Part shown: positions 59,210-63,510 of the stretch, piece after piece | Position numbering within the stretch: position 1 is the stretch's first letter | Layout of the letters: every line of letters begins with the position of its first letter | NCBI GenBank assembly: GCA_017853175.1 | Contig: JAFMKA010000003.1 | Span: 1 to 64,000 of the forward strand | Source of the DNA: Steroidobacteraceae bacterium | GTDB taxonomy: Bacteria; Pseudomonadota; Gammaproteobacteria; Steroidobacterales; Steroidobacteraceae | DNA length: 64,000 nt | Reading direction: 5' to 3' | Made by a program: the position numbers and the translations under genes | The notes under the pieces: generated by a model | Databases searched by the model: none | The model's input: the letters and a program-made list of their open reading frames with translations, nothing else | Told to the model about the DNA's origin: nothing

Positions 59210-59980
59210 ATGGTTGCTGCCGCCGACATACGCGTGGTTCTGGTCGAGACCTCCCATCCGGGCAACATCGGCGCGGTCGCTCGCGCCATGAAAAACATGG
59301 GCCTCGAGAAGCTCGTGCTGGTGCGTCCCAAGGAGTTCCCGCATTCCGAGGCGAGTGCTCGAGCCTCGGGTGCCACCGACGTGCTCGAGCGCGCCGTGGT
59401 TGTCGATCGACTCGAAGAGGGCATCGCCGAGTGCGGGTTCATTGTGGCCACCACGGCCCGTGACCGAGATCAAAATATCCGTGTGCTCGACGTACGCGAT
59501 GGTGCGCAGCGCATCGTGTCTGAAAGCCTTCGAGGGCCCGTCGCGCTGCTGTTCGGTAACGAACGCACGGGTCTCACGAACGAGGAGCTCTCACTCGCGC
59601 ATCTTCTGCTGCGCATTCCGGCGAACCCGGCTTACTCCTCGCTCAATTTGGCCATGGCGGTACAACTCGTCACCTATGAAATCTATCGTGCGCGCGGTGC
59701 GCAGCACGTCTCGGCGCCGGGACCGATACCGCTCGCGACGGGCGAGGAGATGGAGCGTCTCTACGCTCATTTCGAAGAAGTGCTCGAGGAAGTGGGCTTT
59801 CGTGATCGGACCACGAGCGGCACACGGTTGATGGAGCGTATCCGCCGCTTCATCAACCGCGCCGAGCTCGATCAGAACGAAGCGAACATTTTGCGCGGTA
59901 TTTTTACGGCGATTCAGGGTCGACGACGCCCGGCCGGCGCGCGGTCAAATAATTCGACCGCCGGAAAGTCCGACTCGTGA
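59210..59980 (+). CDS. trmJ: tRNA (cytidine/uridine-2'-O-)-methyltransferase TrmJ
   Basis: TrmJ 2'-O-methylates nucleotide 32 in several tRNAs. It is a SPOUT (knotted) enzyme of 256 residues. VLVETSHPGNIGAVARAMKNMG near the start, LLFGNERTGLTNEEL near 119 and IPANPAYSSLNLAMAVQLV near 140 form the SAM knot. A C-terminal helical extension (about 180-256) is normal for the family. It overlaps the desulfurase gene by 4 bases (GTGA). Confidence 0.94.
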   Translation: MVAAADIRVVLVETSHPGNIGAVARAMKNMGLEKLVLVRPKEFPHSEASARASGATDVLERAVVVDRLEEGIAECGFIVATTARDRDQNIRVLDVRDGAQRIVSESLRGPVALLFGNERTGLTNEELSLAHLLLRIPANPAYSSLNLAMAVQLVTYEIYRARGAQHVSAPGPIPLATGEEMERLYAHFEEVLEEVGFRDRTTSGTRLMERIRRFINRAELDQNEANILRGIFTAIQGRRRPAGARSNNSTAGKSDS

Positions 59981-61449
59981 AACCGATCTTTCTCGATCAT
60001 GCCTCGACGACGCCGATCGACCCTGCGGTGGCGGAGGTCATGTCCGAGGTGCTCAGGGGTGAGCTTGGTCTCGGCAATCCATCCTCGAGCACGCATGCTT
60101 ACGGGCGCGATGCGGCCGCGGCTATTGAAGCGGCACGCGCCGACGTGGCGGCGCTCATCGGCGCTCGCGTAGACGAGATCGTTTTCACCTCTGGTGCAAC
60201 CGAGTCCGACAATCTCGCCCTCTTGGGTGTCGCGCGCGGTCGCGCTGATCGCGGTCGTCATCTCGTCACCGCTCGTACCGAACACAAGGCGGTGCTCGAC
60301 CCCGTCAAACAACTCGAGAAGCGCGGCTGGCAGGTCAGTTGGCTGACGCCCGATCGTGACGGTCGTATCGATCCTGCGGCGGTGGATGCGGCGCTGCGCC
60401 CCGACACTCAACTGGTGTCGATCATGCACGCGAACAACGAGACGGGCGTCGTGCAAGACATCGCCGCGATCGCGGCGACCTGCCGAGCGCGCGATATTTT
60501 CCTGCACTGCGATGCGGCGCAATCGGCGGGCCGACTCTCCATCAACGTCGATTCGATCGGTGTCGACCTATTGTCGATCTCCGCGCACAAGCTTTACGGA
60601 CCCAAAGGCATCGGCGCCCTCTGGGTCTCGCCGCGCGTTCGACCCTGGATCGAGCCGCTCATGTGGGGCGGTGGTCATGAGAGGGGGCTTCGGCCCGGCA
60701 CGCTCGCCACCCATCAGATCATCGGCTTCGGTCGCGCGGCCTCTCGAGTGCGCGAGCAACGCGAGTCCGATGCGCGTCACGTCGAGGCGCTCGCGTCGCG
60801 ATTTCGATCCGGTCTCGCCGATCTCGAGGGTCTGCGCTGGAACGATCATCCCGTTCATCGTTTGCCGGGACTCGTCTCGCTCAGCATCGAAGGCGTCGAG
60901 GGTGAAAGTCTGATGGCCGCGCTGCCGGCGATCGCCGTGTCGAGCGGGGCGGCCTGTGATTCGGCGACCGGCGAACCGTCGTACGTCTTGCGGGCGCAAG
61001 GTGTGCCGACCGAGCTCGCACAGTCGACGCTGCGCGTCGCGTTCGGCCGCTTCAATACCGATGACGACGCTACACGCGCGGCCGCGCTGCTTCGTGAGTC
61101 TGTTGTGATGTTGCGCGCTCGAGATGCGCCGGGGTCACCGACGGGCGAGGGCTGGGGGATGGGCGAGGCGGGGAGTCTTCGCGAGGGCGCGCGGATTCGC
61201 TGTTTCGTTCGTCTTGATGCGGCGCAGCGCATCTCGGCGGTCGAGTTCAGGGCCGCAACTTGCCCTGGGGTGTGGGCGGTGCTCGACGGCTTACGTCGGG
61301 AACTCGTGGGTCGACCCGCTGTGGCCCCGACCGTCGACGGTCCGCGGGACTGGGCGCACCGATTCAATCTGCCGACCGAGAAACTTGGCCGGCTGTTTCG
61401 AGTCGAAGAGGCCTTGGGGGCGGCAATCAAGGCCGCTGGCGAACCGTGA
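59977..61449 (+). CDS. Cysteine desulfurase fused to a degenerate IscU-like domain
   Basis: Residues 1-385 are an IscS-type (group I) desulfurase: LDHASTTP at the start, ATESDN, HANNETG near 151, PLP lysine 205 in SAHKLYGPKG, RPGTL, and Cys327 in SSGAACDSA followed by EPSYVLRAQG. It moves sulfur from cysteine to acceptors. Residues about 395-487 look like the IscU scaffold fold: IRCFVRLD, ISAVEFRAATCPG, a helix after it, then LPTEKLGRLFRVEEALGAAIKAA. Of three IscU ligand Cys, only the middle one (Cys429) is clearly kept; the first is replaced in GSLREG and the third by RLFRVEE. The domain is therefore probably structural or regulatory, not a scaffold. The start is GTG 59977, coupled to trmJ. 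Confidence 0.88.
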   Translation: MKPIFLDHASTTPIDPAVAEVMSEVLRGELGLGNPSSSTHAYGRDAAAAIEAARADVAALIGARVDEIVFTSGATESDNLALLGVARGRADRGRHLVTARTEHKAVLDPVKQLEKRGWQVSWLTPDRDGRIDPAAVDAALRPDTQLVSIMHANNETGVVQDIAAIAATCRARDIFLHCDAAQSAGRLSINVDSIGVDLLSISAHKLYGPKGIGALWVSPRVRPWIEPLMWGGGHERGLRPGTLATHQIIGFGRAASRVREQRESDARHVEALASRFRSGLADLEGLRWNDHPVHRLPGLVSLSIEGVEGESLMAALPAIAVSSGAACDSATGEPSYVLRAQGVPTELAQSTLRVAFGRFNTDDDATRAAALLRESVVMLRARDAPGSPTGEGWGMGEAGSLREGARIRCFVRLDAAQRISAVEFRAATCPGVWAVLDGLRRELVGRPAVAPTVDGPRDWAHRFNLPTEKLGRLFRVEEALGAAIKAAGEP

Positions 61450-61458
61450 TCGGCGCAT

Positions 61459-61464
61459 TACAAT
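61459..61464 (+). promoter_or_regulatory. Candidate iscA -10 (TACAAT)
   Basis: TACAAT sits 43 bases before the iscA ATG, directly upstream of the tandem repeat. No convincing -35 is present, so read-through from trmJ is an alternative. Confidence 0.3.
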
Positions 61465-61498
61465 GGCAGCGCGCATCGTGATGGCAGCGCGCATCGTG
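61463..61498 (+). repeat. Tandem 18-bp direct repeat upstream of iscA
   Basis: Two exact copies of an 18-bp unit (ATGGCAGCGCGCATCGTG) are adjacent, 61463-61480 and 61481-61498, followed by AGGAG and the iscA ATG. In frame they would begin a 19-codon peptide ([19 protein letters not shown]) ending at 61522, overlapping the iscA start in another frame. Confidence 0.9.
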
Positions 61499-61506
61499 AG
61501 GAGACC

Positions 61507-61830
61507 ATGGCGATTTCATTGACAGCCGCGGCGGCAGATCGAGTCCGCAGTTTTCTCGGGACCCGGGGGCAGGGCATCGGCCTGCGTCTTGGCGTCCGTA
61601 AGACAGGTTGTTCGGGGTTCGCCTATGTCATCAACTACGCCGACGAGACCACTCCGGCCGACGTCGTTTTCGAAGACCAGGGCGTCAAAGTGTTCGTCGA
61701 CCGCGAGAGCCTGCCGTACATCGACGGCACCGAAGTCGACTTCGTGAAGCAGGGCCTCAATGAGGCCTTCAAGTTCCGCAACCCCAACACCAAGGGCGAA
61801 TGTGGTTGCGGAGAAAGCTTCAACGTCTAA
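61507..61830 (+). CDS. iscA: A-type iron-sulfur carrier IscA/ErpA-like
   Basis: This is an A-type Fe-S carrier that hands clusters to apo-enzymes. The protein has 107 residues with [14 protein letters not shown] (Cys near 35) and GECGCGESF (two Cys near 99 and 101), the three ligands of the family. AGGAG lies 3 bases before ATG 61507. It follows the desulfurase-IscU fusion; iscU, hscB, hscA and fdx are missing from their usual positions. Cluster clients here would include LipA, RlmN, fumarase and ETF-QO. Confidence 0.93.
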
Positions 61831-61944: not shown

Positions 61945-62373
<429 letters not shown>

Positions 62374-62400: not shown

Positions 62401-63510
62401 ATGACTGAAGCCGCCGCAGTACGGACCAACCTCCTCGGGCTCGAAAAGCCCGAGCTTGAGGCGTTCGTCACTGCGCTCGGTAATAAGCCGTTTCGAGCGC
62501 GTCAGCTGATGAGTTGGCTCTATAAGCGTTGCGAGGGCGACTTCGCGGCGATGACCGATCTCGCGCGAGACTTCCGCGCGCAGCTCAGCGAAGTGGCCGA
62601 GGTGCGTACGCCCGAGATCGTCTCGCGCCACGATTCCGCTGATGGCACCCGCAAGTGGTTGCTGCGCGCTGATAGCACGCAGGCTTTCGAGATGGTGTTC
62701 ATCCCTGAAGTCGATCGCGGCACGCTCTGCATTTCATCGCAGGTGGGTTGCGCGCTCGACTGTTCGTTCTGTTCGACGGCTCAGCAGGGCTTCAATCGCA
62801 ATCTCACCACCGCCGAAATCGTCGGTCAGGTGTGGCTCGCCAATCGCGAACTCGGCTTCGAGCCGGGCGGCGAGCGGCGCATCACGAACGTCGTGTTCAT
62901 GGGTATGGGCGAACCGCTCGCGAATTTCCGCAATGTGGTGCCCGCCATTCGTATCTTGCTCGATGATCTCGGTTTCGATATTTCTCGCCGACGCGTCACG
63001 CTCTCGACCTCCGGTCTCGTGCCGCTCATGTACAAGCTCGCCGAAGAGGTGAACTGCGCGCTCGCGGTGTCGCTGCACGCGCCCGACGATGCGCTGCGCA
63101 ACGAGCTCGTGCCGATCAATCGTAAGCACCCGATCGCCGAGCTGCTCGATGCCTGTTGGCATTACATTGATGAGCAGAACGGCCGCAGCGTGACCTTCGA
63201 ATACGTCATGCTCGATGGTGTGAACGATCAACTCGAGCATGCGCGCGCGCTCGCGCGGCTGCTCAAGGGCAAGCCCGCCAAGCTCAATCTCATTCCTTTC
63301 AATCCTTTTCCGGGCACCGACTATCGTCGTTCGCCCATGCCGGTGATCACGCGCTTCCGTGACGAGCTCATCCAGCGCGGGGTGCTCGCCACCATTCGTC
63401 GCACGCGCGGTGATGACATCGACGCGGCCTGCGGCCAACTCGCTGGCCGAGTCAACGATCGAACCCGCATTCGTCTCGGCGAAAAGCTCGCCGGAGCTCT
63501 GGCGTCATGA
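62401..63510 (+). CDS. rlmN: Dual-specificity 23S rRNA A2503 / tRNA A37 C2-methyltransferase RlmN
   Basis: This radical SAM enzyme has 369 residues. The cluster motif [14 protein letters not shown] is near residue 117, the [12 protein letters not shown] segment near 170, and [21 protein letters not shown] near 220. The methyl-carrying Cys lies in [11 protein letters not shown] near residue 343. An N-terminal helical domain recognises RNA ([24 protein letters not shown]). It starts 27 bases after ndk and overlaps rodZ (ATGA). Confidence 0.96.

Follow-up and report, generated by a model that had tools for sequence, protein, structure and literature searches.

The locus

The window analysed here, a stretch of 64,000 nucleotides from a Steroidobacteraceae bacterium, contains a gene in which an IscS-type cysteine desulfurase and an IscU-like domain occur in the same polypeptide chain (Table 1). 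The GTGA of this gene forms a 4-base overlap with the stop of trmJ, and iscA, ndk and rlmN follow downstream; the last two are named from conserved order and sequence. In Escherichia coli, the order is trmJ-iscR-iscS-iscU-iscA-hscB-hscA-fdx. Unlike that ISC operon, the locus has no iscR, no separate iscU, no hscBA and no fdx. The fusion occupies the exact iscU slot in the order trmJ-iscS-iscU-iscA-ndk-rlmN, and relatives in which the genes are separate have an iscU-like gene between iscS and iscA. It is this position that clinches the identity of the C-terminal domain as IscU. Between the fusion gene and iscA, 18 bases are duplicated perfectly in tandem (ATGGCAGCGCGCATCGTG, 2.1 copies; window positions 61463-61499).

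Table 1. Features of the fusion gene and its neighbours, in window coordinates
Feature	Position	Strand	Basis
trmJ, upstream neighbour; also upstream in E. coli, with iscR intervening	59210..59980	+	
Gene fusing IscS to a degenerate IscU, 490 aa, GTG start	59977..61449	+	ORF list
IscS-type cysteine desulfurase domain, residues 1-381	59977..61119	+	Pfam Aminotran_5, E 1.7e-80; IscS models
PLP lysine Lys205 (E. coli Lys206)	60589..60591	+	Invariant in 75 relatives
Catalytic Cys327 (Cys328 in E. coli), in a low-confidence loop of the model	60955..60957	+	
Linker, residues 382-393	61120..61155	+	Aligned with IscS and IscU of E. coli
IscU-fold domain, residues ~394-490	61156..61446	+	Profile, AF2, Foldseek, VIA-align
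Cys429, corresponding to IscU Cys63, where the domain's first helix begins	61261..61263	+	
Lys469, equivalent of IscU Lys103 (IscS docking lysine)	61381..61383	+	
Gly471-Arg472, in place of IscU ligands His105-Cys106	61387..61392	+	
iscA, downstream neighbour	61507..61830	+	NCBIfam IscA TIGR02011, 157.8 bits, over cut-off
ndk, where E. coli has hscB-hscA-fdx-iscX	61945..62373	+	Conserved order and sequence
rlmN	62401..63510	+	Conserved order and sequence

The desulfurase half

The initial annotation described an intact IscS with Lys205 and Cys327, and this is borne out for residues 1-381. All five residues that correspond to His104, Asp180, Gln183, Lys206 and Cys328 of E. coli IscS are invariant among 75 relatives, and the protein thus has the marks of a group I desulfurase (IscS/NifS): the PLP lysine, the loop cysteine and the His104/Asp180/Gln183 equivalents. 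A full-length AlphaFold model (pLDDT 92.9, pTM 0.89) is confident except in the loop that carries Cys327, where residues 326-330 fall below a pLDDT of 50. IscS models are the best NCBIfam matches (E 1e-135 to 1e-137), but their equivalog cut-offs are missed (TIGR02006, 451.8 vs 643.2 bits; NF010611, 459.1 vs 548 bits); by curated cut-offs, the protein falls outside the IscS equivalog.

Residues of IscS helix 8 that touch IscU are retained (Glu309, Gly310, Glu311 and Leu313). In E. coli, IscS needs its C-terminal helix (379-391) to bind free IscU (PMC2854127); in the fusion, that helix and the first ~25 residues of IscU have given way to a linker of ~12 residues. Within the order, 28 of the 39 fused loci and 28 of the 36 separate ones have Arg at the position of IscS Trp45. 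In E. coli IscS, the change of Trp45 to Arg brings mnm5s2U and s4U down to about 5% (PMC2854127).

Identity of the C-terminal domain

The window's own domain is too diverged to be recognized alone. It has no Pfam match, NifU_N included; NCBIfam gives NifU_clost at E 0.24, and phmmer likewise returns nothing useful. The family as a whole is more informative. A profile of 14 members, searched against the PDB, places IscU proteins at the top (E 2e-10 to 1e-9), and 10 of the 14 match Pfam NifU_N singly, the best at 1.3e-13. An AlphaFold2 model of the domain, built from an 81-sequence alignment, has a pLDDT of 92.7 and a pTM of 0.86. Its top Foldseek match is human ISCU2 (E 1.3e-7, TM 0.82), and E. 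coli IscU (3lvl_A) is matched at E 3.7e-6; VIA-align superimposes 107 residues on IscU at 2.5 Å (Z 14.5), and SufU structures score about 10 or less. Lack of an IscU-fold match, or disorder, had been named beforehand as grounds for abandoning the fusion claim; the fold is matched and the region is ordered. The C-terminal ~97 residues are, then, a genuine IscU fold and homologue, degenerate as the initial annotation proposed.

Other assignments were considered and set aside. Membership of the SufE family is rejected, as the domain has no Pfam SufE match. VIA-align rows for xanthine/CO dehydrogenase and lipoate ligase (Z about 8) are taken as generic fold similarity, and profile matches to DsbA (CPH motif, E about 0.1) as chance. 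The domain also carries an extra cysteine in a core strand, Cys409 (window 61201-61203), common to most of the genus and replaced by Phe in most of the family.

Residues lost and retained

At the sequence level, the pattern read in the initial annotation holds. The EEALGAAIKAA helix at the end of the protein has its counterpart in EDAIKAAI of IscU, and ATCPG aligns with YGCG, which makes Cys429 the equivalent of IscU Cys63. The first and third ligand cysteines, Cys37 and Cys106, are gone, as had been noted, and so are Asp39 and His105. Among Cys37, Asp39, Cys63, His105 and Cys106, Cys429 is the sole cluster-site residue left in the window. The HscA recognition motif, LPPVK, has become LPTEK.

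The same pattern extends through the order. We compared 75 loci picked via IscS, and hence unselected for features of the domain; residues are given here in E. coli IscU numbering. Cys37 occurs at none of the 75, Asp39 at one, His105 at two and Cys106 at three. Cys63, by contrast with these ligands, is present at 70, Lys103 at 67 and Gly38 at 66; Cys63 is one of the five columns of the domain that vary least, and is invariant in the 81-sequence alignment (A3). A new consensus (CP, EKLGRL) stands where the old ligands stood: position 64 is Pro at 74 loci, position 105 Gly at 62 and position 106 Arg at 55. The cysteine motif is commonly GCPH, against ATCPG in the window. In E. coli, Lys103 touches IscS, and K103E disrupts the IscS-IscU complex; Gly38 and residues 59-64 are also IscS contacts (PMC2854127). 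With contact residues kept and ligands lost, the IscS-facing side of the domain is preserved and the metal site is not. Cys63 and Cys106 of E. coli IscU lie about 4 Å apart (PMC2854127), and from this structure the new Arg at position 106 would neighbour Cys63.

The cysteine is not indispensable. Five rows keep the domain without it (L038, L059, L074/L075 and L081, representing about four lineages), and the domain can therefore act without sulfur. All five also lack Lys103 (Fisher p 3e-6, unadjusted for kinship and reflecting about four events). Loss of Cys63 is more frequent outside the order than within it, so that retention of this residue inside the order is no given. Some ligand-poor IscUs outside the order keep Lys103 without Cys63, and the linkage of the two residues is therefore not general.

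Distribution and selection

Intact fusions occur in 19 of the 24 genomes of the genus. In three others, part of the fusion is seen on fragmented contigs; in another, a contig end truncates the locus. The remaining genome has the two genes apart and no Cys63. Recurrence in independent MAGs rules out chance, assembly error or a frameshift as the origin of the fusion. The nearest named records are gammaproteobacterial MAGs from freshwater and soil, several of them labelled Steroidobacteraceae by their depositors. Blastn of the domain DNA against E. coli genomes gave no match, as expected, and plasmids, among the best rows, gave only partial matches to the IscS half, at <60% identity. The fused or separate state changes at least 11 times on a 99-locus IscS tree, with 4-6 of the changes forced by well-supported branches, a count that frameshifts in MAGs could inflate and in which gain and loss are indistinguishable. 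The fusion appears to be an old arrangement that has evolved repeatedly in bacteria that now build clusters by another pathway.

The domain is kept across the genus and most of the family, and is under purifying selection. Between close relatives its dN/dS is 0.10-0.28 (0.48 in one pair with few changes), compared with 0.09-0.23 for the IscS half of the same relatives. Constraint is thus weaker than on IscS, yet this is no freely drifting relic.

Ligand-poor IscUs occur in other orders too, in a class-level draw of 274 genomes. Ten of the 11 such genomes outside the order lack HscB; in comparison genomes with a canonical IscU, HscB is found in 10 of 10 and a SufB match in 2 of 10. Three loci from other gammaproteobacterial orders (L178, L181 and L182) display a second style of ligand loss, in which Cys37 and Cys63 are gone and the LPPVK-HC region is near canonical. 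All three keep Lys103, and L178 and L181 also keep His105 and/or Cys106; their genomes have no HscB. One of the genomes with a ligand-poor IscU from these other orders, G346, carries it as a fusion (L170, G346:C2) and has in addition a canonical IscU adjoining HscB (G346:C11), from which it follows that the fused form can coexist with an apparently full ISC system.

Genomic context

The initial annotation suggested looking for stand-alone IscU or SUF genes elsewhere in the genome. A SUF operon is present on another contig (C80, L072; 71-6156), with the order sufB-C-D-S-SufU-SufT, and is followed by a Rieske-type ferredoxin; SufB and SufU were identified by family search and the remaining genes named from sequence. 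This operon is likely the main route of Fe-S assembly. No canonical IscU was found in the genome besides the SufU of this operon, and IscS is therefore likely retained for tRNA thiolation and similar needs. Among 98 relatives, HscB occurs in none, SufB in 97, SufE in 17 and TusA in 15; TusA occurs in none of the 24 genomes of the genus. MnmA, a widespread protein, is present. Judged by eye, the association within the order between the fusion and the absence of TusA is not clean.

Three roles had been suggested for the tethered domain: regulator, shield against outside acceptors, and director of sulfur to tRNA thiolation. All of these we infer, and genomic context favours them over cluster assembly, because SUF and MnmA are present, HscB is absent and TusA was not found.

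Proposed function and alternatives

We propose that the domain is a tethered single-cysteine sulfur acceptor, or gate, acting on its own IscS subunit for non-cluster needs such as tRNA thiolation, and that it is no scaffold; we put the chance that this is correct at about even. The proposal draws on the IscU fold, the iscU gene slot, and the loss of ligands with Cys63 and Lys103 kept. It draws, too, on the retained helix 8 contacts and the replacement of the C-terminal helix by a tether; on dN/dS values mostly of 0.1-0.28; and on the distribution of HscB, SufB, MnmA and the scarce TusA. Finally, it draws on the change of Trp45 to Arg, on a disulfide between IscU Cys63 and IscS Cys328 in E. coli (stated in PMC2854127; Kato 2002 is listed in PMC11559095), and on the precedent of a desulfurase-rhodanese fusion, described below. 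Counting against it are the ATCPG motif of the window, which is not GCPH, and the lineages without Cys63.

The history may have run as follows. SUF would have taken over cluster assembly, and hscBA would have been lost; the iscU beside iscS would have shed its cluster ligands but still have bound IscS and carried one cysteine; and the two genes would then have merged in several lineages. In the reaction that we infer, Cys327 would draw sulfur off L-cysteine as a persulfide, and the tethered domain would sit in the IscU site of its own subunit; IscU is expected to receive sulfur from whichever IscS subunit binds it (PMC2854127). The flexible Cys327 loop would pass the sulfur to Cys429, whose thiolate or persulfide may be steadied by Arg472, at the place of IscU Cys106 about 4 Å off. 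Cys429 would then pass the sulfur on to acceptors outside cluster assembly, with MnmA-type tRNA thiolation the likeliest, a target to which gene content points, and the docked domain would exclude other acceptors. A more specific version, in which a metal-free single-cysteine relay (Cys63 with the new Arg106), repeatedly joined to IscS, replaces TusA for tRNA thiolation under SUF, we consider rather unlikely to hold in full.

The main rival is that the domain is a docking cap: that it sits on its own subunit where IscU would bind, modulates desulfurase activity and bars other partners, without a persulfide ever forming on Cys429. It owes this standing to the lineages, about four, that lost the cysteine yet retained the domain. 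IscU binding is known to alter IscS activity and to compete with TusA (PMC11302665), and NfuA provides a precedent for a degenerate Fe-S carrier domain retained in a fusion (PMC8593673). A pure cap, however, would have no need of Cys63, one of the least variable columns of the domain; we regard it as a real possibility, though a lesser one. It is improbable that the domain is a decaying relic of iscU, joined to iscS accidentally and on its way out. The lost ligands and N-terminal segment, the faster change relative to the IscS half, and the ligand loss in other HscB-less gammaproteobacterial orders would all fit decay, but dN/dS is well under 1 in nearly every pair, a new consensus has supplanted the old ligands, and the domain has been retained through the genus and most of the family and has survived several switches between the fused and separate states. 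Most improbable of all is that other ligands allow the domain to keep building or carrying an Fe-S cluster, or to carry zinc. It has the IscU fold and adjoins iscA, but four of the five metal-site residues of IscU are gone in nearly all members, leaving one site cysteine; HscB is absent from 98 of 98 genomes, and the window's genome has a SUF operon with its own SufU.

Relation to known systems and significance

IscS, IscU and the complex that they form are textbook material. SufU and SufE have IscU-like folds and take persulfide from a desulfurase, as is established for both families. The domain described here differs from them in its partner, which is a group I IscS and not SufS, and from SufE in lacking a Pfam match. 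It differs from SufU in that SufU structures score below IscU by VIA-align, and in that a separate SufU is encoded in the SUF operon of the same genome.

The closest comparison is with the E. coli IscS-IscU complex (PDB 3lvl; PMC2854127), with which the fusion shares both folds, the trmJ, iscS, iscU and iscA neighbourhood, the docking residues of IscS helix 8 and Lys103 of IscU. Unlike that complex it is covalent, and the IscS tail helix, the N-terminal segment of IscU, the four ligands, the LPPVK motif and the neighbouring iscR, hscBA and fdx are missing. In a natural desulfurase-rhodanese fusion from Pseudorhodoferax, too, one polypeptide combines a desulfurase with a tethered acceptor of its sulfur, and the cysteine of that acceptor can increase the activity of the desulfurase (PMC8931425); a rhodanese plays this part there, whereas here it would be a former IscU. 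NfuA, in which Nfu is joined to a degenerate A-type domain (PMC8593673), is similar in that a cluster-carrier fold that lost a ligand cysteine is kept in a fusion. The other domain of NfuA still holds a cluster, whereas the partner domain here donates sulfur. In the open-access literature searched, we found neither a natural IscS-IscU fusion nor an order-wide IscU with Cys63 and Lys103 but no cluster ligands.

Which IscU cysteine accepts sulfur from IscS, and whether acceptance is separable from cluster building, are matters of debate. In many lineages here, evolution has removed the cluster ligands and kept Cys63 and the docking lysine, and so offers a natural route to separating the two. Because the covalent form fixes a 1:1 complex, the hand-over of persulfide could be easier to study in it, by structure and by kinetics. 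The fusion predicts a TusA-free route for sulfur to tRNA. For the fate of ISC parts when SUF takes over, it means that iscU can be recast, and is not simply lost.
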